This document shows, piece after piece, positions 12,489 through 35,874 of a stretch of 35,874 nucleotides of DNA. The stretch's first letter is position 1, and the number at the start of each line of letters is the position of its first letter. A program made the position numbers and the translations under genes. The stretch lies in the NCBI GenBank assembly GCA_903907865.1, contig CAIVPR010000184.1, positions 1-35,874 on the forward strand. Direction: 5' to 3'. Source of the stretch: an uncultured Acidobacteriia bacterium. GTDB taxonomy: Bacteria; Acidobacteriota; Terriglobia; Bryobacterales; Bryobacteraceae. The notes under the pieces are model-generated. The model searched no databases and had not been told where the DNA came from. It saw nothing but the letters and a program-made list of their open reading frames with translations.

Positions 12489-12633
12489 TCTTGGCGGTCG
12501 TTGCGTGCCGTCCCTTTGCGATCTTGGCGCGAACCTCATTGCAGGATCTTCTCCTCCCGAAACAATCCGGTTGGAGGAGGATCCCGTTTCTCGCCAAGAT
12601 CGCAAAGTACGGGCACGCAAAGACCGCCAAGAT
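12489..12633. repeat. Long imperfect inverted repeat (hairpin element)
   Basis: Left arm 12489-12533 (TCTTGGCGGTCGTTGCGTGC...) and right arm 12588-12633 (...CACGCAAAGACCGCCAAGAT) match over about 45 bases with few mismatches. The inner part also pairs partly (GATCTTCTCCTCC against GGAGGAGGATC). The element could fold into a ~145-nt hairpin between the tilS start and the TR1 RNA region. No convincing gene is encoded; the small frames on both strands are by-products of the repeat. It resembles REP/MITE-like interspersed elements. Confidence 0.7.
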
Positions 12634-12776: not shown

Positions 12777-13115
12777 ACAGGCTGTTCAGGCATGGACTCG
12801 TCAGAAATGGCGCTGCCGGCTGAGCTTCGCGCTGCCCCCAAGGACCGGGCACTACCACAAAACCGGCAGCCTGTTTTATGTTTGGCCCGCAAACTGCCTG
12901 CTGGCCGGGACCGGAACCCGGAAGCAAGAGCACTCTTCCGAAGACGGATTTCACTCCTGACTAGGGAACTCTGGCTTTGTCGCTGGCCTTCCGGCCATCC
13001 TGCATCCCCCACGCACCGAGCGCCGATGTTGTTGTTACGTTGCGCCGGCCCGTTCCTGTTGCGAACGGAGGCGCGGAGGTTCCTGGGATTGTTGTTCCAC
13101 GAACCGCCACGCAGC
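12777..13115 (-). ncRNA. Putative DGR template RNA carrying TR1 and a conserved 3' flank
   Basis: TR1 forms the 5' part of a presumed minus-strand non-coding transcript. Its 3' flank shares three blocks in the same order with the flank of TR2: plus-strand 12904-12924 against 35256-35276 (GCCGGGACCG.AACCCGGAAG, one mismatch in 21), 12874-12886 against 35207-35219 (TTTTATGTTTGGC / TTTTGTGTTTGGC), and a CTACCAC block. ACAGGCTG (12777-12784) pairs with CAGCCTGT (12867-12874), which would close a stem. In the studied Bordetella DGR, a structured RNA 3' of TR is needed with Avd and RT for cDNA synthesis; that role is inferred here. The ends are approximate. Confidence 0.6.
13005..13115 (-). repeat. 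DGR template repeat TR1
   Basis: A 111-base near-copy of the 3' end of the caspase/FGE gene (VR1, 13261-13370). In the sense strand it holds eight AAC codons plus AAT, CAA, AGG and ATC. All 16 substitutions against VR1 fall on template adenines (A to T, G or C), and none of the roughly 87 non-adenine positions is substituted. One extra C (GGCGCC against GGCGC) lies in the GC-rich 3' segment that corresponds to the initiation-of-mutagenic-homology end. A terminator separates TR1 from the target gene, so TR1 is not part of its reading frame. Confidence 0.95.
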
Positions 13116-13161
13116 TCTGGTTCCGTTCCACTCGCTCCAGTTTATACCAGTCCCGCCCCCA

Positions 13162-13189
13162 AAAAAATTCGACGGGGCATCGCCCCGTA
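13162..13189 (-). terminator. Rho-independent terminator of the caspase/FGE target gene
   Basis: The inverted repeat ACGGGGC-loop-GCCCCGT (13173-13189) is followed on the minus strand by CGAATTTTTTTGG. It sits 68 bases after the target-gene stop codon and before TR1, so target mRNA and template RNA are probably separate transcripts. Confidence 0.85.
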
Positions 13190-13256
13190 CCCCCTCGTCT
13201 GCCCAACCCCCGCATCGTTTGGAAAATGGAAACAGGGGAAAAGAAAAAAGGCTAAG

Positions 13257-15170
13257 CTATTCCCCCACGCACCGAGCGCCGACGTCGGCGTCACGTAGCG
13301 CCGGCCCGTACCCGAAGCGAACGGAGGCGCGGAGGAACCTGGGAAGGTTGAACCACGAACCGCCACGCAGCACCCGTTCGGTTCCCGAGTTCGGACCCTT
13401 CGGGTCCCTTACTTCCGTTCCCTTGTAATAGTCTTGACCATACCAATCCGCCGTCCACGACCAGACATTGCCCAACATGTCGAACAGGCCCCAAGCGTTG
13501 GGTAGCTTCGTGCCTACAGAATGCGGGCCGTTGCCGTTGTCTCGAAGCTTGGCCTGATACCCTTCCCACTTTCCATCTGTTGGAATCAGCTTGGTAGTGT
13601 CCACCCGTTCCTTTCCGCTGTTATCTCCGTACCATGCGATTGCGTCCAAGTCGCCATAGCGCGGTGCCGTGGAGCCCGCGCGGCCAGCGTATTCGTATTC
13701 AGCCTCGGTGGGAAGGCGGCCACCGCCAACTTTGCAGAACCCGTTCGCTTCATCCCAAGTCATCCCGATCAAGGGCTGCGATCCATCCTCCCAACCGGGA
13801 TTGTAATCGCGTTCTTTCCCGGCGACGGTCCATTTGGAACTCCAGGAAGGCACTTTGCCATAGACCTTCTTCCATGCCTCCACCGTGATCGGCGTTTCCG
13901 CCATCCAGAAGCCCCTGGTGATGGTCACGTCGCGTGCGGGCTTCTCGTCGTCCCAACATTCCGTGTCCCCCGCAGAGCAGCCCATGTGGAATCGGCCCGG
14001 CTGCAACCAGACATAGCGTTGGCCGTCCTTGGGGTTGATCTTGACATCGCCCTGCTTAGGGCCGGTCGAGCCGGGCTGCGATGAGGTTGTGGGCTGGCAG
14101 AGTTCCGCCATCCTGATCCGAGCCGCTGGCCCATAGGGTCCGGTTCCGTATTCGCTATAGAAGGCTTGTACGGCGGCGCAGCTGCGGGAGGCCTTGACGC
14201 TGTCCCAGATCGAGGCGGCATCCGGGGCTGATGGGACCGATGGGGCGACAATGGTGCCCGGAACGACGGCCAGCACCAGGTCGTCGGCATAGCCCTCGAT
14301 GACGGGAAACGGCACCTGGCGTTTGTCGTTGCCCTTGTCGCGGGCCACCTGCTGGGGCACGCGCTGTTTCACGTAGCGGACCAGCGAGGCCAGCGTCACC
14401 TCGCCCGTACGCGGATTGGCCGCCTTGCCGCGCATCGCCTCCTCGACAGCTGAAAGAAAGTAGCCGCGGTCGCTCGCGTTGTTTTCCCAGGCGCGATCCC
14501 CGACCGTGGTGGCGTAGAGAGTTGCAAACGCCTGCACGCCCTTGTTGCGGAGGTCGAAGCGGAAACCGTCGACGTAGCCCTGGGTGAGGGCGTTCTTGGT
14601 GTCGGGGTCCTTCCCGGCGGAGGGATCGTTGCGGCAGGCGTCCAACAGGATCACCACCTGGGCTATGCCGGCGGCTTGCAGCCGCTTCTGCAGCCAGTCG
14701 ACGCTGATGGAGGTCTGTTCGAGGTCGTCGAGGTCGTTGGTCAGCTGGGAGTCTTGCGCCAGGAGGAAGGGCCGGCGGCCGCGGTCGACGCCGTGGCCGG
14801 AGAACTGCACCAGCAGCAGGCCGTCCTTGGGAATCTGCTGGAGGATGCGGGAGAGCTGGGTGATGATGTTGGCGCGGATGGGACGCAAGTCGCGCACCTG
14901 GCCGGTGGCGAGCACGACGACCTTGTCTTCGGCGAAACCGGCGGCCTCGGTGAGGACCTTCTTCATGGCCTGCGCGTCGTTGGCGGCGCCGTGGAGCGGG
15001 TTGATGTCGCGCGAATCGTAGTCGTTGACGCCGATCAGGAGGGCCCAGCGCTTCTCCTTGGCGGGGAGGGTGTGGATGCGGTCGACGACGAGCCCCCGCT
15101 GGGCCACCAGGGCGGGCTGAAAAAGTGCGTTGGAGAGCAGCAGGGAGAGTGCGAGCGCGCGCTTCAGCAT
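13257..15170 (-). CDS. Secreted caspase-family protein with C-terminal FGE-sulfatase/C-type-lectin domain; DGR target
   Basis: 637 residues from ATG at 15170 (AGGA 7 bases upstream, then a signal peptide, LKRALALSLLLSNALFQP). Residues ~41-300 are a peptidase C14 (caspase/metacaspase) domain: RWALLIGVNDY, catalytic His126 in FSGHG and Cys179 in LLDACRND. A linker (~305-380) follows. Residues ~385-637 are a formylglycine-generating-enzyme-like domain (GRFHMGCSAGD, GGGRLPTEAEYEYAGRAG, LGNVWSWTADWYG), the C-type-lectin-like fold often used as a DGR variable protein. It ends LRGGSW...GARCVGE, with the variable residues between 607 and 630. The protein is probably exported and cleaves or signals on binding a ligand; that is inference. 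The reading frame is intact. Confidence 0.92.
   Translation of the reverse strand: MLKRALALSLLLSNALFQPALVAQRGLVVDRIHTLPAKEKRWALLIGVNDYDSRDINPLHGAANDAQAMKKVLTEAAGFAEDKVVVLATGQVRDLRPIRANIITQLSRILQQIPKDGLLLVQFSGHGVDRGRRPFLLAQDSQLTNDLDDLEQTSISVDWLQKRLQAAGIAQVVILLDACRNDPSAGKDPDTKNALTQGYVDGFRFDLRNKGVQAFATLYATTVGDRAWENNASDRGYFLSAVEEAMRGKAANPRTGEVTLASLVRYVKQRVPQQVARDKGNDKRQVPFPVIEGYADDLVLAVVPGTIVAPSVPSAPDAASIWDSVKASRSCAAVQAFYSEYGTGPYGPAARIRMAELCQPTTSSQPGSTGPKQGDVKINPKDGQRYVWLQPGRFHMGCSAGDTECWDDEKPARDVTITRGFWMAETPITVEAWKKVYGKVPSWSSKWTVAGKERDYNPGWEDGSQPLIGMTWDEANGFCKVGGGRLPTEAEYEYAGRAGSTAPRYGDLDAIAWYGDNSGKERVDTTKLIPTDGKWEGYQAKLRDNGNGPHSVGTKLPNAWGLFDMLGNVWSWTADWYGQDYYKGTEVRDPKGPNSGTERVLRGGSWFNLPRFLRASVRFGYGPALRDADVGARCVGE
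13261..13370 (-). repeat. DGR variable repeat VR1 (3' end of target gene)
   Basis: A 110-base region coding residues 601-637 of the target, aligned to TR1. Amino-acid differences (TR to VR): N607F, N609L, N612F, N619F, R620G, N621Y, Q625L, N627D, N628A, N629D and I630V, with N608 unchanged. The sequence 3' of residue 630 (GGCGCTCGGTGCGTGGGGGA in sense) matches TR1 apart from one indel and fits the mutagenic-homology segment. 5' of base 13370 the similarity fades with non-adenine differences, which sets the boundary. Confidence 0.95.
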
Positions 15171-15258
15171 CGGGAGTCCTACCATTGTAATGCTACGGGC
15201 GGGCTGTTTCTTACAGGAAAATTTGCCAACGTCCGGCGGATTCAAACGTATTCCCAAG

Positions 15259-16197
15259 GTGCGACTCCTGCCGATTCTTCCGATTCTATTCCTTGTACCA
15301 TTCTGCGTGGCCCAGGAGCCCGTTGCCATCAAGGTCGATGTCAGTTTGGTCAATGTCGCTTTCATCGTACGCGATGGCTCGGGCGCGTTGGCCGCGGGGT
15401 TGACCAAGGATGACATCGAGCTGTACTAGGACGGCGTACGCCAGGAGGTCAAATTCTTCGGACGATCCTCCGACCTGCCGTTGCGACTCGCGATCCTGAT
15501 GGATGTAAGCGGCAGCCAAGACAAGTTCATCAAGCAGCACAACCGCGACCTCCAGACGTTCGTCAAGAGCGCGATCCAGGAGCGCGACCGGGCGCTGGCC
15601 GTCTGTTTCGGCAACCACCTGCGGCTGGTGAGCGATCTCACCAACTCGTCGGAGGCGCTGATCGAAGGTGTCTCCCGCTTCGGCAAGGGCGACCGGCATT
15701 TCCCCGAACTCGATCCCGACGACACGCGCGAGGGCGGCACGGCGTTGTTCGATGCGGTCCACGCTGCCGTGACCGAAAAGCTCGGGCGGTCCGAGCCCGG
15801 TCGAAGGGCAATCTTGCTGTTCAGCGACGGCGAGGACAATTCAAGCGCCCACGACCTGCTGGAGGCCATAGGAGCCGCGCAAACCGCCGACGCCCCTATT
15901 TACACGGTGCGATACACGGAGCCGAGTCGGCATGGTCGGCTGACGGCGCGCAACCGGTATGGAATGACGGAGATGGACCGTTTGGCGCAGGAAACCGGTG
16001 GCGCGGCGTTTGATGCCTCGACCCAGAGTGTCGGGGAGTCCCTCAAGCGTGTGGCGGAGGAATTGCGATCCATCTACGATCTGGGCTATGTCAGCACCAA
16101 CCCCGCGCACGACGGGACGTTCCGCAAGGTGGCGATCCGCGTGAAGACGCCTGGGTATATGGCAAGGGCCAAGACGGGGTATTTTGCGTCCAAATAG
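15259..16197 (+). pseudogene. VWFA-related (Acidobacteria-type) protein interrupted by an in-frame amber codon
   Basis: The full frame is 312 residues from GTG at 15259, with signal peptide LLPILPILFLVPFCVAQ. The following segment (VSLVNVAFIVRDGSGALAAG, LTKDDIELY) runs into TAG at 15427-15429 and then resumes in the same frame with DGVRQEVKFFGR. Homologues usually have Glu or Gln here (IELYEDGVRQ), so a single base change explains the stop. The downstream part keeps the von Willebrand A metal site: DVSGS, the Thr in GGTALFDAV and FSDGEDN. The stop would leave a 56-residue secreted stub. It may be a pseudogene, an amber read-through or a sequencing error. Its stop codon directly abuts that of the convergent radical SAM gene. 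Confidence 0.75.
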
Positions 16198-28673: not shown

Positions 28674-29003
28674 ATGTTTGTTTTTGACGGATGTCTCCCG
28701 GGACGGTTACGTCCCGGCTTCAATCATGGGACGGTTACGCTCACGCGAAGCACGCCCCGGCGAAGATTATGATATCAACCACCCACGCGGTTCGACGCGG
28801 TCGCGGCCTTCATCCGTGACCGATGGAATGGTATCGCTCGGCTCCGCGAGGTTCACTGTCGCGGCCGGGCGGAAAAATCTGCCCCGTTCGGCCCCCGTGA
28901 AGTCGTATTCCCGCTTCATACCAGCAACGTTGGCCCTCCCTCGCGTGACCGAGCCGCGACCGCGAGGGAGCGTTTGTTTCGCCCTTATGTTCAACCCTTA
29001 TGT
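28674..29003. other. Intergenic region upstream of the ABC operon
   Basis: About 330 bases without a convincing gene. It should hold the promoter of the leftward ABC/NAD operon and the 3' untranslated end of the CDGSH gene. It contains the short repeat GGGACGGTTACG twice (28691-28702 and 28729-28740) and the interspersed hairpin at 28936-28979. Confidence 0.5.
28936..28979. repeat. Second copy of the GAGCCGCGACCGCGAGGG interspersed repeat
   Basis: 28951-28978 matches the arm of the 22101-22177 element over 28 bases (exact complement of the left arm). It also forms its own hairpin here: CTCCCTCGCG (28936-28945) with CGCGAGGGAG (28961-28970). Confidence 0.75.
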
Positions 29004-29237
29004 TTAGACCTTGGGTTTCGGCGCGGGGAGATCCCGTGCCACGACCTTGTCCTGAAAACCCTGCCGCGCGTGCGAACCGTCGCAGAACGGCTTGTTCTGC
29101 GAGAGCCCGCAACGGCAAAGGCCGATCACCGTCCGCCCTCCAAGCCCGAAGGCCTGACCCTGCGGATCGCAAATTTCGAAATCCCCTTCGACGCGGATGG
29201 ACCCGTCGTTGTTCACCGTGATTTTGGTAGCTGCCAT
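29004..29237 (-). CDS. CDGSH iron-sulfur domain protein
   Basis: 77 residues from ATG at 29237. The CDGSH signature C-x-C-x2-S-x3-P-x-C-D-G-S-H is complete (CRCGLSQNKPFCDGSH) and binds one 2Fe-2S cluster through three Cys and one His. The short N-terminal strands (ATKITVNNDGSIRVEGDFEI) and Pro/Lys tail fit the small stand-alone bacterial members, which are thought to act in electron transfer or iron/redox handling. No partner gene is adjacent; repeats flank it on the right. Confidence 0.92.
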   Translation of the reverse strand: MAATKITVNNDGSIRVEGDFEICDPQGQAFGLGGRTVIGLCRCGLSQNKPFCDGSHARQGFQDKVVARDLPAPKPKV

Positions 29238-29307
29238 GCGTCACGATTGTACCGTGCAACCCGGCGTCGCTCCCTTTTGTATTACCGGCCCGCAACTTCC
29301 GCCTCTG

Positions 29308-29376
29308 CTCCGTTGTGGGGCAGGATGGCATCCTGCGGCGGGGTCGCCGACACCGCCACGCGCCCTAGAGGCGCGT
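29308..29376. repeat. Interspersed GTTGTGGGGCAGG repeat, copy A
   Basis: CTCCGTTGTGGGGCAGGATGG followed by CATCCTGCGGCGGGGTCGCC and a CCACGCGCC..AGAGGCGCG hairpin. It is the first of five related copies (A-E) in the window. The 29238-29711 gap otherwise holds a second diverged block (about 29440-29560, TGTGGGGCGGGCAATGTTGC, then GTGCCGGACTTATCCA), parts of which recur near 32248 and 34962. I see no gene in the gap. Confidence 0.7.
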
Positions 29377-29711
29377 ATTTACTTCGACTCCACCCCGTTG
29401 TACTACCTGACCGCAACTTCTTTGCAGCTTGCAACGCTACCGACCGTGGGGCGGGCAATGTTGCCCGCGGCGGATTCTCGGTCGTAGACAAGTGCCGGAC
29501 TTATCCAAGCACAAGGTCGCCGAGCGTTTGCGCCACTGGTCAGGGCTTTCAGCCGCCTCATGCGCCACACGGCGCAGGTTGCTTGCACATGCTCTCGCCA
29601 ACCCCCCTTCATCACCCAAAATCCCCTGTAAGAAACTCCCCGCCTCCCTCATCTCTTCTCAGCACCCGTCCGCTCGCGATAAACTATCCCAAAGGGTTTC
29701 TGCAAATCGAC

Positions 29712-31793
29712 ATGCGCCGAACACTTCCCATCCGCATCGCCGCGTTGCCAATCGCGGTCGCTCTCACCCTCTCGACCGCCTCCGCCCAGACTCCGTCGCG
29801 CGCCAAGCGGGGCATGGAAGCCGTCGGCAGTGCCGACCCGCTGTCCGCCGCCGGTCCCAAACGCCGCGCGCTGGTCGTCGGCAACGACACCTATACCTAC
29901 CAGAAGCAACTGCGCAATGCCGTCAACGACGCCCGCGCCGTCTCCACCACCCTCCGCGAACTCGACTTCGTCGTCACCGAACTCGACGACGCCAACCTCA
30001 AGGACCTCAAAGCCGGCGTCCAGCGCTTCTTCGCTTCGATCCAGCCCGGCGACGTCGCCCTCTTCTTCTACTCCGGCCACGGCATCCAGATCAACAACGT
30101 CAACTACCTGCTCCCGGTGGATTTCAACGAGACCCTGGAAACGCAGGTCCAGTTCGCCGCCGAGCCCGCCCAGGCCATCCTCGACGGCATGGGCGAAAAG
30201 GGTGCCCGGCTCAGCCTGATGGTCCTCGACGCTTGCCGCAACAACCCGCTGGCCCGGGTCGGCAACGGCAAGTCCCTGCCCAAGGGCCTCGCCCAGATGC
30301 AATCGGCCGCAGGCACGTTCATCGCCTTCGCCACCGCGGCCGGTGCCACCGCCTCTGACCAGTCCGACGCCGCCAATGGCCTCTACACCACCCATTTCCT
30401 CAAGGTGCTGGAAAAGCCGGGCCTTTCGTACCTCGAGGTTTTCCGCCAGACCGGCGAGGCCGTGGCCGAGTCCTCCGGGCACCAGCAGATTCCCTGGATG
30501 TCCGGCGCGGTCGGGGGCGGAAACTTTGTCTTCCGTGAACCCGGTGTTCTGGACCGGCGTCTGGAGGCCGTCAACGCCGAGATCCGCCGCCTAAAAGACC
30601 AGCAGGCCGCCAAGGACGCCGAGGCTACCGCCAACCAGACAGCCGAGCAGCTGCGGCGGGCGGCGCTCGAAAGGAAGGTCCGCGAGGCCGAACTGGAGAG
30701 GCTGTCGAACGAGGCCCGGAACGTGGAGGCTGCGAAACTCCGGGCCGGTGAAATCGACGCCGAAGTGGGCAAGCTGGCCGATTCCGACCGCAAGCGCCAG
30801 CGAGACCTAGCCGACGCCGAGGAACAGGCGCGGAGGCTGCGCGAGCAAGTCCGCCAAGCCCCCAAAGTCAACACGCTGGACGAGGCGCACAAGCGGGTGG
30901 ACGCGCTGAACCGCCAACTGTCCGACGTCCGGGCGAAGGCCGTCGCGGACCGAAAGAAGGCGCTCGATGACCTCGAAGCCGCCTACCGCCCGCTCCGGGA
31001 GATGCTGGCGAAGGATCCCGTCCCCGACGAGTTCGGCGCTCCCGAGGGCAATGCCAAGGCGCTGGTCGACGCGCGCACCAAACGCCAGGATCACCAGACC
31101 AAGTTCGATGCCGCAAAACGACAGATCGAATCGCAATATGCCGCCAAGCTGGCGAACCGCCCGGAGACGGAGGAGATCCAACGGCTGTCCCGGCAGACGT
31201 TCACGGTGGTGGAACCGGCCAAGTGGGTCGGAGCCTATGACAACGTCAACCAACTGGTGACGGTGGAGTCAGGCGGAGCCACCTACTTTGTGCCAGTTCC
31301 GAGGGAGAATGCTCGGGAACTCGGGGCTATCCGCAATGACGCCACAATGCAATTCACCCGGACTTTCGACGGCGCGTTGGTGGCGAAGGTGAAGCCGGAA
31401 TTGGTGGGGCTGCGGGGGGAGATGTTTCCGGTTTCGGTCGCTCCAGATCCGCCAGGTGTTTGGACTGATCCGAAGACCCGTCTGATGTGGCCGAAGTCGG
31501 ATAACGTGGAATATTTAGCCCAAGACGCCGCGAGGAAATACTGTTCGTCCCTTGGGTTGGCGGGGTATCGGGATTGGCGGTTGCCCTCGATTGTGGAACT
31601 GAAATCGCTGTACGAGCCATCGTTTCGCAATGCCTCGCCTCCATTTCATACTAAGGGCGGGATCACGCTGAGTGATTGGTGGATGTGGGGTTCGGAGGCT
31701 GGCCTGGGCCTCGTCTTCGGCTCGGGCGAGTCCAACCAGCACCGCGACTTCTACTTCAATAGGGTGCTTTGCGTGCGTCCTGCCGGAGAATGA
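29712..31793 (+). CDS. Secreted caspase-family protein with coiled coil and DUF1566-like C-terminal domain
   Basis: 693 residues from ATG at 29712. Signal peptide RTLPIRIAALPIAVALTLST. Residues ~50-275 are a peptidase C14 domain: RRALVVGNDTYTYQKQLRNA, catalytic His123 in FYSGHG and Cys175 in VLDACRNNPL. Residues ~281-480 form a long Ala/Arg/Glu-rich coiled coil. After a middle domain (~490-575), residues ~580-693 match the DUF1566/Lcl C-terminal fold (GVWTDPKTRLMWPKSDN, GLAGYRDWRLPSIVELKSL, FYFNRVLCVRPAG), which is C-type-lectin-like. Its architecture parallels the DGR target at 13257-15170: secreted caspase plus lectin-like end. No template for it is visible here. Confidence 0.9.
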   Translation: MRRTLPIRIAALPIAVALTLSTASAQTPSRAKRGMEAVGSADPLSAAGPKRRALVVGNDTYTYQKQLRNAVNDARAVSTTLRELDFVVTELDDANLKDLKAGVQRFFASIQPGDVALFFYSGHGIQINNVNYLLPVDFNETLETQVQFAAEPAQAILDGMGEKGARLSLMVLDACRNNPLARVGNGKSLPKGLAQMQSAAGTFIAFATAAGATASDQSDAANGLYTTHFLKVLEKPGLSYLEVFRQTGEAVAESSGHQQIPWMSGAVGGGNFVFREPGVLDRRLEAVNAEIRRLKDQQAAKDAEATANQTAEQLRRAALERKVREAELERLSNEARNVEAAKLRAGEIDAEVGKLADSDRKRQRDLADAEEQARRLREQVRQAPKVNTLDEAHKRVDALNRQLSDVRAKAVADRKKALDDLEAAYRPLREMLAKDPVPDEFGAPEGNAKALVDARTKRQDHQTKFDAAKRQIESQYAAKLANRPETEEIQRLSRQTFTVVEPAKWVGAYDNVNQLVTVESGGATYFVPVPRENARELGAIRNDATMQFTRTFDGALVAKVKPELVGLRGEMFPVSVAPDPPGVWTDPKTRLMWPKSDNVEYLAQDAARKYCSSLGLAGYRDWRLPSIVELKSLYEPSFRNASPPFHTKGGITLSDWWMWGSEAGLGLVFGSGESNQHRDFYFNRVLCVRPAGE

Positions 31794-32196: not shown

Positions 32197-32329
32197 TCCG
32201 TTGTGGGGCAGGCTGGCAGCCTGCGGCGGGGTTTCCAGTCGCAGGCCTGTGCCGGACTTATCCAGGTAGTCTCTCACTTGTTAAATCGTCGCCACTGGTC
32301 AACACCGCCACGCGCCCCAAGGGCGCGCA
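32197..32329. repeat. Interspersed GTTGTGGGGCAGG repeat, copy B (extended)
   Basis: CTCCGTTGTGGGGCAGGCTGG, then CAGCCTGCGGCGGGG, GTGCCGGACTTATCCA, CGCCACTGGTCAA, and a hairpin CCACGCGCCCCAAGGGCGCGC. It joins motifs that are split in copy A and its diverged downstream block at 29440-29560. Confidence 0.65.
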
Positions 32330-33441: not shown

Positions 33442-33531
33442 TTCCGTTGTGGGGCAGAGTGGCACCCAGGCGTGGCACCCTGCGCGGAGGTCGCCGACCT
33501 CCCCACGCGCCAAAAGGCGCGCCCTCGACCG
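33442..33531. repeat. Interspersed GTTGTGGGGCAGG repeat, copy C
   Basis: TTCCGTTGTGGGGCAGAGTGG, then CCCTGCGCGGAGGTCGCCGA with CCTCCCCACGCGCCAAAAGG. The inner palindrome GAGGTCGCCGACCTC and the GCGCC-AAAA-GGCGC stem are well preserved. It lies just before the RT pseudogene. Confidence 0.75.
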
Positions 33532-33583
33532 CAACATCTGCCCCCATCCACCATCCTGTGCCCCCACCCCCCATCCTGAATCA

Positions 33584-34508
33584 ATGCAACGCACCCCCAA
33601 CCTCTGGCCGACCCTCGCCTCATGGCCCAACCTCGCCCTCGCCCTCCACCGCGCCGCCCTCGGCAAACGCCGCCGGCCCGACGTCGCCACCTTCCTCCTC
33701 GACTGGGAACCCCGCCTCGTCGTCCTGGCCCGCGAACTGGAATCCGGCGACTACCGGCCCGGCCCCTACCGCACCTTCATCGTCCGCGACCCCAAAATGC
33801 GCAAGATCTCCGCCGCCCCCTTCCGCGACCGCGTCGTCCACCACGCCCTCACCCAGGTTCTCGAACCCGTGTTCGAACCACGCTTCGTACGCGAATCCCA
33901 CGCCTGCCGGGTCGGGTTCGGCACCCACACCGCGCTCAACGCCGCCGCCCGCGGGTCGCACGACTACCCCTACGTGCTCCAGTGCGACATTCGCAAATAC
34001 TTCCCGTCCATCGACCACCGGATCCTGAATCAGCAACTCGAACGGGGCGTCAAATGCGCCCGCACCCTGGATCTGGCGGCGAAAATCATCGACGGCTCGA
34101 ACCCGCAGGACGGCCCCGACTTCCTGTTTCCCGGCGACGATCTGTTCACGCCCTGCGAACGCCGTCGCGGTCTCCCCCTCGGCAACCAGACGTCCCAATT
34201 CTTTGCCAACCTACCTGGAAACCCTGCGCCTCCGGCTGCACGACGGCAAGAGCCGCACCTATCCCTGCGCCGACGGCTTCAGCTTCCTCGGCTGGCGGCT
34301 CTTTCCCGACCACAGGCGTCTGGTTCGCGGGAACGTGGTGCGCTTCAACCGGAGGATGAACGCCATGGTCCGCGACTACAGGGCGGGCGAACTCGACCTG
34401 AAGTCCGTGGTGGAGCGTCTGAAGGCTTGGGCCGCCCACGCCAGCCACGGAGACACCTGGCACCTCCGCGAGCGCATCTTCGACCGCCACCCCCTCACCG
34501 CCCCCTAA
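33584..34508 (+). pseudogene. DGR-type reverse transcriptase with the catalytic YxDD region deleted
   Basis: From ATG at 33584 the first frame keeps RT blocks 1-4: ISAAPFRDRVVHHALTQVLE, RESHACRVGFGTHTALN, YVLQCDIRKYFPSIDHRIL (first catalytic Asp), and RGLPLGNQTSQFFAN. The LGNxTSQ form replaces the usual QGxxxSP and marks DGR reverse transcriptases. At about 34208 the sequence jumps, one frame over, to YLETLRLRLHDGKSRTYP, then FSFLGWRLFPDHRRLVRGNV and AWAAHASHGDTWHLRERIF, the normal DGR RT C-terminus. Roughly 40-50 residues that should carry YxDD are absent, and the join is out of frame. Such a protein could not polymerise. Confidence 0.88.
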
Positions 34509-34903: not shown

Positions 34904-35021
34904 CTGGTTCCTGTGTATTACCTGAAGCAACTTCTTCGCAGCTTCTGCCGATTCTGACTGTGGGGCGGCCAATATTGGCCGCGGCGGGCTTTCAGCCAGC
35001 CGTAACCGGAAAGCTCGCTGC

Positions 35022-35101
35022 TGCCGTTGTGGGGCAGGGTGGCTCCCAGGATGGCATCCTGCGCGGAGGTTGCCAACCTCCGCACGCGCCAAAAGGCGCG
35101 G
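35022..35101. repeat. Interspersed GTTGTGGGGCAGG repeat, copy D
   Basis: TGCCGTTGTGGGGCAGGGTGG, then GCATCCTGCGCGGAGGTTGC and CACGCGCCAAAAGGCGCG. It lies between avd and the TR2 RNA. A diverged block just to the left (34917-35000) resembles 29402-29470. Confidence 0.75.
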
Positions 35102-35145: not shown

Positions 35146-35495
35146 CAAAAATCTCCCGCTCCGTCAGGCTTCGAGCCTTGCAGCCCTACCACGGGACGGA
35201 GCGGCTTTTTGTGTTTGGCGCCGCAATCCGCGATCCGAAAACCACGACCTGCTTCGCCGGGACCGAAACCCGGAAGCGGAAAGGCACACCCGGGCGGGTC
35301 TTTGAGGGCCGCCGGCCCTGGCCTGTCATCCCGTTGCCCAGCGCACGGAGTGCGCCATTTCTTGAGAGCAGCGGGCTGGTCCGTATCCCCGGCACACCGA
35401 AACCCGTTGTTCTGGTTCCGGTTCGACGGCTGGTTCCTGTTACGCCTGGACGCGCGCGCATTCGACGCATCGTTGTTCCAGGATCCGCCGCGGAG
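35146..35495 (-). ncRNA. Putative DGR template RNA carrying TR2, with terminator-like 3' hairpin
   Basis: The region 3' of TR2 on the minus strand repeats the conserved blocks seen after TR1 (35256-35276, 35207-35219 and CTACCAC near 35186). It ends in a stem of CCGCTCCGTC (35156-35165) and GACGGAGCGG (35195-35204) enclosing a smaller AGGCT/AGCCT stem. On the minus strand GAGATTTTTGG follows, so it looks like an intrinsic terminator. This defines a transcript of roughly 350 nt. The 5' end is not known. Confidence 0.65.
35386..35495 (-). repeat. Orphan DGR template repeat TR2
   Basis: Sense translation reads [19 protein letters not shown] and then RNQPSNRNQNNGFRCAGD, with eight AAC codons. 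This is the hallmark adenine-rich template of FGE/C-type-lectin DGR targets. It is 110 bases, the same length as VR1. An in-frame TGA lies a few codons upstream (S-L-R-G-G is preceded by a stop), so it is not the end of a gene. No matching variable repeat occurs in the window; TR1 and VR1 are related but clearly different. Confidence 0.85.
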
Positions 35496-35650
35496 CGATC
35501 AGGCTTCGTTCCACTTTCATCACTCTACCACCCATGGGTTGCAGGCCGCGCTTGTTGTGATGCAGTTTGCGCCGATTCGTGGCGCACGCACTCTTGCGTG
35601 CCGCGTCGACAATCCTGTCGACGCCTGTTCTTCGTTTGGTTGCGGCTCCG

Positions 35651-35721
35651 CGTCCGTTGTGGGACAGGATGGCATCCTGCGCGGAGGTCGCCGACCTCCC
35701 CACGCGCCCAAAAGGCGCGCA
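35651..35721. repeat. Interspersed GTTGTGGGGCAGG repeat, copy E
   Basis: CGTCCGTTGTGGGACAGGATGG, then CATCCTGCGCGGAGGTCGCC, GACCTCCCCACGCGCC and the GCGCC-CAAAA-GGCGC stem. It abuts the group II intron 3' end (35735), so it may be the intron's insertion context. Confidence 0.75.
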
Positions 35722-35734
35722 CCTGCCCCTCAAA

Positions 35735-35874
35735 ATCGGCATAGGGGGGACGGTCGCCCGTCCGCCCCTGCCACACCACCGGACATGCGGGTCCGCATCC
35801 GGCGGTTCGGTGGGTTTAGCCATACTTGGGGTCCAATCTCGGAAGCCCCAGCGAGTCGAATGCGGCGTTGGGGA
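35735..35874 (-). mobile_element. 3' end of a group II intron (domains V and VI), running off the right edge
   Basis: On the minus strand 35806-35775 folds as a domain V hairpin: ACCGCCGGA-TGCG-GACC-CGCA, a 2-base TG bulge, then TCCGGTGGT. Next comes a domain VI-like stem (GGCAGGGG..GACGG-GCGA-CCGTC..CCCC-TA-TGCC) with an unpaired A 8 bases from the end. The element finishes GCCGAT at 35735, matching the AY 3' end of group II introns. An open frame ending just before (stop at 35816) fits an intron-encoded protein. Confidence 0.7.
35816..35874 (-). CDS. C-terminal fragment of a probable group II intron-encoded protein
   Basis: The last ~19 codons before a TAA at 35816-35818 read PNAAFDSLGLPRLDPKYG. 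The stop lies 10 bases before the domain V hairpin, the expected place for the end of a reverse transcriptase/maturase encoded in domain IV. The fragment is too short to identify by itself; the assignment rests on position. Confidence 0.45.
   Translation of the reverse strand, partial: PNAAFDSLGLPRLDPKYG

Follow-up and report, generated by a model that had tools for sequence, protein, structure and literature searches.

A template and variable repeat pair with no adjoining reverse transcriptase, probable part of a dispersed diversity-generating retroelement system in an Acidobacteriia genome

Where does the reverse transcriptase (RT) come from when template and target of a diversity-generating retroelement (DGR) stand side by side and no RT gene adjoins them? 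The question is raised by a DNA stretch of 35,874 nucleotides from an uncultured Acidobacteriia bacterium (contig CAIVPR010000184.1 of assembly GCA_903907865.1), the whole of which is called the window. An initial annotation reported an adenine-specific template/variable repeat pair in it and named this a diversity-generating retroelement. As a template/variable pair of a DGR the finding holds. A complete element it is not: no RT adjoins the pair, the only DGR-type RT of the window is broken, and the system extends over several contigs. Very probably the pair is the template/target half of a DGR, i.e., it belongs to the scattered parts of a multi-target DGR network in which the template is used, now or until recently, with an RT acting in trans. 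The window's own genome is designated G000, the window contig C184 and the other contigs accordingly (C28, C53, C70, etc.).

The repeat pair and its target protein

The argument starts from three features:
13005..13129, minus strand: template repeat (TRw), from repeat search and adenine tabulation; the minus strand is the sense strand
13261..13385, minus strand: variable repeat (VRw), the final codons of the target gene, from the same two procedures
13257..15170, minus strand: target gene, 637 aa from the ATG at 15170, with a caspase domain (PF00656) and a C-terminal formylglycine-generating enzyme (FGE)-sulfatase/C-type lectin (CLec) domain (PF03781) which carries VRw

TRw and VRw form a single ungapped direct repeat of 125 nt, 84% identical at an offset of 256, and the strongest repeat of its region. 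The end-to-end alignment reported initially was right in being ungapped and inexact at its edges: the partner of 13115 is 13371, not 13370, and the repeat extends to 13129 and 13385. In the core, 13005-13115 read on the minus strand in the sense of the target, 16 of 24 template adenines are substituted (nine A>T, five A>G, two A>C) and 0 of 87 other positions. This recount reproduces the 16 substitutions, all at template adenines and none at about 87 other positions, which had been claimed. A row shifted to 13004-13114, one base past the repeat end, contains one non-A difference. Along the whole 125-nt repeat the two copies differ at 20 positions, 18 of them among the 30 adenines and 2 among the remaining 95 (p 5.5e-12); from repeat position 12 onward the counts are 18/26 and 0/88 (hypergeometric p = 3.9e-15). 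Tabulated by template base, the pair is strictly adenine-specific in the core. Beyond it, at the 5' edge of the repeat, two further A changes are joined by two non-A changes, G>C at position 6 and C>G at position 11. Both recur between VR70 and TR70, a paralogous pair on C70, and therefore look like a 5' edge that retrohoming does not reach. At the other side, an IMH/IMH* pair (initiation of mutagenic homing) marks the 3' end of conversion in DGRs; here the repeat ends sharply at 13005 and 13261 with an invariant end, and a difference between IMH and IMH* was not seen. When TRw was slid across both strands of the window it scored 1.0 with itself, 0.84 with VRw, 0.64 with one further copy, likely a second template (TR2w, below), and at most 0.44 elsewhere.

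The template lies outside any recognised gene, with an 84-aa open reading frame (ORF) spanning it. Thirteen of the 14 codons changed from TRw to VRw are changed non-synonymously, and in 0 of 41 TRw codons can mutation of adenine produce a stop. Eleven changed residues had been placed between 607 and 630 of the target; this agrees with our count from the ATG at 15170 and corresponds to 689-712 of the longest ORF (13257-15416, minus strand, 719 aa). Translation probably starts at this ATG. By eye the N-terminus is hydrophobic and resembles a signal peptide.

The domain matches of the target are FGE (E 2.1e-46, PF03781, ORF residues 467-717) and caspase (E 2.9e-22), and the translation contains SGHG and DACRN, which we take to be caspase-domain motifs. 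Among PDB sequences the Treponema denticola variable protein 1 (2y3c) is the third-best match, with E 9.2e-19 over residues 168-256 including the VR. The structure model of the target is of modest confidence, with a mean pLDDT of 62 and values of 46-85 in blocks of ten in the VR part. Foldseek matched it to FGE structures and, at rank 32, to 2y3c (E 7.7e-9); with a root mean square deviation near 10 Å these fold matches say little on single residues. Formylglycine-generating enzymes use active-site cysteines. The cysteine-bearing stretch of 6muj/2q17 (RGGSYLCHDSYC) aligns to RGGSWFNLPRF of the target, inside the VR, where there is no cysteine. Judged by this loop, formylglycine-generating activity is unlikely. 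The target probably serves as sensor-effector in a conflict (defence) system, and the diversified residues may form its ligand face.

A scan of genome contigs with the target yielded 12 loci, all distant (best segment at most 40%). Divergent from the target lies a VWA gene (15260-16197; TIGR03436 acidobact_VWFA, 164.7 bits) with one in-frame stop near its start; its TIGR03436 match is a lead towards Acidobacteriota. The window encodes a second caspase-domain protein (28974-31793) with a C-terminal Lcl_C domain (PF07603).

Surroundings of the template and further parts in the genome

Around TRw the following features are discernible:
13161..13188, minus strand: terminator-like structure between VRw and TRw, a 7-bp GC hairpin (13172-13188) with a T run behind it, read from the sequence, no terminator scan
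12805..13004, minus strand: 3' flank of TRw, sharing 172/184 aligned nt (93.5%) with that of TR70, the paralogous template on C70
12678..12793, minus strand: avd relic, about the first 39 codons with a broken frame, matching the avd of C70

The order downstream of TRw is conserved flank, avd relic, tilS and a gene which by eye resembles ftsH. Beside TRw there is no RT, only the avd relic. The flank is well kept while the adjoining avd has decayed, and it possibly belongs to the template RNA. Rfam at gathering score and ARAGORN found nothing in the whole window. An inverted repeat (12489-12632; 45-nt arms, 87% complementary, 54 nt apart) lies between tilS and the avd relic.

The genome comprises 7.5 Mb in 186 contigs and is 98.3% complete. 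It contains 27 PF03781 matches, some of which are templates. All 27 FGE loci were scored against four templates, which fall into three families: TRw and TR70, TR2w, and TR174. Every family has at least one VR without a core non-A mismatch:
family 1, VRw against TRw: 18/30 A, 2/95 non-A
family 1, VR70 against TR70: 20/31 A, 4/94 non-A
family 1, VR53 against TRw: 16/30 A, 8/95 non-A
family 2, C117 VR against TR2w: 17/26 A, 0/89 non-A
family 2, C28 against TR2w: 17/25 A, 6/87 non-A
family 3, C158 against TR174: 19/27 A, 0/84 non-A
family 3, C143 against TR174: 17/27 A, 1/88 non-A
family 3, second C143 copy against TR174, in two slightly overlapping pieces: 10/13 A, 0/46 non-A and 11/15 A, 0/37 non-A

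Seven sites distinguish TRw from TR70. VRw has the TRw letter at all seven; VR70 has the TR70 letter at six, and the seventh is a changed TR70 adenine. Each VR thus fits its own neighbouring template, and information seems to have passed from template to neighbouring VR since the pairs parted, even though no RT adjoins TRw.

The lectin end is combined with differing partners: caspase in the window and twice on C117, trypsin plus NACHT on C158 and C143. The further caspase-FGE ORF on C117 ends at the contig end where its VR should start. The C53 target (L020, 6836-8400) has by eye a TIR-like N-terminus with an internal stop, and Pfam reports only FGE on the open part. For the C28 target a cytochrome match stays just under cut-off. 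The C70 target has no firm N-terminal domain (CarboxypepD_reg under cut-off), and its neighbours are AAA ATPase and TIR-iSTAND genes.

The second template, which the finding in the initial annotation does not mention, belongs to a further DGR remnant of the window:
35386..35500, minus strand: second template repeat TR2w (RGGSWNNDASNARASRRNRNQPSNRNQNNGFRCAGD), with matching VRs on C117 and C28
34538..34912, minus strand: avd-like accessory gene (NF033474 DivGenRetAVD E 5.1e-20, 71.7 bits, cut-off 80; PF22296 bAvd 50.9 bits, cut-off 40)
33578..34502, plus strand: broken DGR-type RT, its stretches abutting in two frames and matching a relative's RT at residues 8-217 and 263-358
35735..35807, minus strand: stretch resembling group II intron domain V, close to where the contig ends, 35.9 bits, under the Rfam gathering score of 40

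This RT lies 20 kb from TRw. It lacks about 45 middle residues including YxDD, and the frame shifts at the join. Compared with PDB sequences the RT piece matches 8ub7 at E 3.5e-28 vs 2.9e-13 for a group II RT; 8ub7 is labelled 'Reverse transcriptase', and we take it to be the Bordetella phage DGR RT. A PDB sequence search with the window Avd returned one match, at the chance level of E 0.11. The 141 nt around the domain V-like stretch (window 35735-35874) recur at 99-100% on C74 and C119; the window contig ends in this repeat. Short dispersed repeats, by eye resembling miniature inverted-repeat transposable elements (MITEs), occur at 29305-29375, 32197-32320, 33467-33541, 34960-35100 and 35570-35722 as well as on other contigs, and are dense around the second remnant.

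A PF00078 search of the genome gave seven matches. With the DGR RT piece as query three places were found at E <=1e-20, on C158, C184 (the window) and C179. The C158 RT again has 8ub7 as its best PDB sequence match (E 9e-41, vs 2.6e-19 for a group II RT). Its frame runs to YVDD and then into group II intron D1-D4 sequence (RF01999, 70.9 bits). C174 begins with domain V-VI (RF00029, 60.6 bits), followed by a C-terminal RT part and TR174. The intron sequence is at C158:1-138 (L014) and C174:1-171 (L046/L118). Joined after GACT and before TCCTAC, the exon flanks read ...ARYVDDFLLFANS... in frame and free of stops. From this exon fit, not from assembly, we infer that C158 and C174 are adjacent. 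The intron ends recur on C26 (5') and C175 (3'), i.e., at least two copies exist, which would explain the contig breaks there. The second copy follows TTTGTCGACGACT, vs TATGTGGATGACT at the RT copy. This may hint at homing to YxDD-like codons, the frame upstream of the second copy being short; that the C26/C175 copy interrupts an RT is unsupported for the same reason. On C156 (L016) an RT-like ORF lies beside a Cas1-like one, both judged by eye apart from the PF00078 match, with two weak CRISPR repeat matches (RF01323, below gathering).

The RT of family 1 is perhaps the C179 gene, now frameshifted, a guess from contig ends and from the layout in the relative G055. Exact overlaps of at least 15 nt among 14 contig ends support neither the presumed C70-C179 join nor that of C158 with C174; the only shared end among them is the 141-nt end of C174 and C175.

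Source of the reverse transcriptase

The absence of an RT at TRw, the loss of YxDD from the window RT and the lack of single frames in the other RTs are the reasons why we class the pair as DGR parts and not as a complete DGR. That it is a DGR pair is indicated by the adenine-specific changes, the C-terminal CLec/FGE target, the avd relic, the DGR-type RT genes of the genome and the same bias in relatives. The mechanism would be as follows. A DGR RT would, together with Avd, copy RNA from TRw and its conserved 3' flank into cDNA, with random bases entering at template adenines; this cDNA would replace VRw, thus rewriting about 12 residues of the C-type-lectin (FGE-like) domain of the caspase-like protein. 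The window locus would be a 3'-truncated copy of a VR-TR-Avd-RT cassette.

With avd decayed and the RT gone at TRw, another locus would supply the RT, or would have done so until recently. As described for PB-PSB1 (below), a locus supplied in trans should have no working RT and a VR which matches its TR at all non-A positions; this is what we find for VRw and the core of TRw (0/87) and for TR2w and C117 (0/89). There are three possibilities: an RT acts in trans on TRw, the RT disappeared only a short time ago, or both pairs of family 1 arrived already apart.

Relatives provide the comparison. The TR-VR stretch of the window is matched in 15 of 101 genomes including G000, in some over 35-60 nt only, and an RT relative at E <=1e-20 is present in 11 of 61, again including G000. 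Viral contigs hold 21 loci with RT relatives, the best at 48% identity. DGRs of relatives are fuller and compact. Among 19 distinct loci seven have VR-Avd-RT-TR on one strand by our count (G005, G006, G015, G021, G023, G048, G055); in G055:C358 the order is VR-TR-Avd-RT, likewise on a single strand; in G016 Avd-RT lies on one strand, TR and VRs on the other; the remaining loci have other orders or are incomplete. Not all of these RTs are intact: L078 and L089 contain an inner TAG, and YxDD is present in 13 of 14, the motif pattern missing in L087. An adenine bias is seen in all 15 TR/VR pairs computed (p 9.4e-17 to 5.1e-5; 0-13 non-A changes per pair). These are the window's pair and 14 hand-picked from nine relatives, with TR2w-C117, L084, the second VR of L121 and any pairs of L081, L082, L087 and L090 left out; L126 and L083 hardly differ, and their tests therefore do not count as independent.

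Several observations weigh against our interpretation. Three VRs are not clean, i.e., VR53 (8/95 non-A), VR70 (4/94) and C28 (6/87). None of the three DGR-type RTs is a single open frame: that of the window is deleted, that of C179 frameshifted and that of C158 and C174 split by the intron. The best NCBIfam match of the RT is group II RT/maturase, with 104 of the 300 bits of the cut-off, and no DGR RT model was among the matches. The flank of TR174 has no match to that of TRw beyond the repeat, hence the intron-bearing RT of family 3 need not recognise TRw RNA. The predicted fold of TRw plus flank is ordinary (z -1.5; 9 of 100 shuffled sequences reach or exceed its stability). A near-identical window locus is absent from the 101 genomes, so variation of VRw itself is unobserved; the best match outside G000 is G055:C358, 80% over 115 nt of the TR. 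In favour of the interpretation, the expectation of a constant TR and a varying VR among relatives is borne out at another locus: G015 and G018, of the same genus, have 33 differences in 2617 nt (98.7% identical), with 0/111 in the TR and 17/111 in the VR, all 17 at template adenines. Since these count as two species, such an identity makes transfer or a mis-binned contig possible (G018 is 7% contaminated).

The strongest rival is a fossil: the pair was written by a DGR since dead in this lineage and VRw is now frozen. It overlaps with the 'until recently' branch of our interpretation. In its favour, a single open DGR RT frame is absent from a 98% complete assembly, an avd relic adjoins TRw, and the C53 target has a stop within its TIR-like part. 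Yet the non-A positions leave little time for drift, with 0/88 for TRw/VRw from position 12 on, 0/89 for C117, 0/84 for C158, and 1/88 and 0/46 + 0/37 for the two C143 copies. Splicing of its group II intron would make one RT whole, and both the C179 frameshift and the intron split are close to contig ends, at which assembly errors are more to be expected. We consider a fossil possible though doubtful. That the locus is an ordinary cis-acting DGR whose RT is lost only from the assembly is very improbable. The compact DGRs of relatives would fit, as would several contigs which end in repeats or at the expected start of a VR; TRw, however, lies inside its contig and is followed by an avd relic where avd-RT is expected, then by tilS and the ftsH-like gene, i.e., the RT is absent, not unassembled, and we reject this reading. 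A plain duplication of an FGE C-terminus with subsequent positive selection or drift, for which the abundance of FGE matches could speak (27 PF03781, some of them templates), has next to no chance and is refuted by strand- and base-specificity: of the 20 differences, 18 are among the 30 adenines on a single strand of a single copy (p 5.5e-12). Nor is the template part of a recognised gene, and the bias is present in all 15 pairs computed.

Within a network supplied in trans, a further idea is conceivable, albeit rather unlikely: hypermutation may be gated by splicing. The only potentially whole DGR RT carries a group II intron after YVDD; a mobile ribozyme would then be needed to diversify, in trans and from several templates (among them the two of the window), a set of conflict-type sensors.

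Comparison with known systems

The DGR of Bordetella phage BPP-1 has an RT with Avd, a TR/VR pair, adenine mutagenesis and a CLec target in a compact cis cassette which diversifies a phage tail protein. Avd is common in DGRs, not universal. G000 shares RT and Avd, TR/VR, adenine mutagenesis and the CLec target; it differs in the scatter of the parts over a bacterial genome and in the caspase-like target of the window. The T. denticola variable protein 1 (2y3c) matches the VR-bearing part of the target in sequence and fold; unlike the window target it presumably has no caspase domain.

The passage on DGR-linked VMAP ternary conflict systems in Kaur et al. (2020, PMC7159879) describes formylglycine-generating sulfatase (FGS) or FGE as the diversified module, with the TR sometimes elsewhere in the genome. 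G000 has the FGE module in common with these, and the C70 target stands beside AAA ATPase and TIR-iSTAND genes. The systems in that passage are cyanobacterial and gammaproteobacterial and mostly vWA-FGS fusions, whereas in the window target caspase and FGE are fused, and the VWA gene lies divergently at 15.26-16.2 kb.

The closest parallel is Thiohalocapsa PB-PSB1, for which the relevant passages of Dore et al. (2024, PMC10907252) report that a single genome carries several DGR loci, with incomplete loci and remote targets among them. Trans use was judged there by a perfect non-A match, MITE-like repeats degrade redundant DGR parts, and CHAT-TIR and STAND/NACHT proteins carry the CLec ends, with trypsin- or caspase-like genes in the vicinity. 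Multiple and incomplete loci, remote targets, CLec ends on conflict-type proteins and MITE-like repeats are all common to both genomes. In PB-PSB1 diversification was seen at 8 of 9 loci in metagenome reads; for G000 the comparison is based on the assembly.

Dispersed trans-acting DGRs on CLec-ended conflict proteins are thus already described in these passages (PMC10907252, PMC7159879), and the window pair belongs to a known kind. It is a clean case of DGR parts come apart, with the template beside its target, the RT lost and other templates and targets elsewhere, and in G000 the lectin end is fused to caspase, trypsin-NACHT and TIR-like modules. According to the relevant passage of a large survey (PMC8144416), its own approach would miss VRs which do not adjoin an RT. 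With genomes such as G000 one can ask if many templates share a single RT. No description of a DGR RT that contains a group II intron was found in the literature searched, which is no proof of absence, and the word 'intron' does not occur in the main text of PMC10907252. The intron-split DGR RT is the unusual part of the system in G000, and it would make splicing control of hypermutation directly testable.

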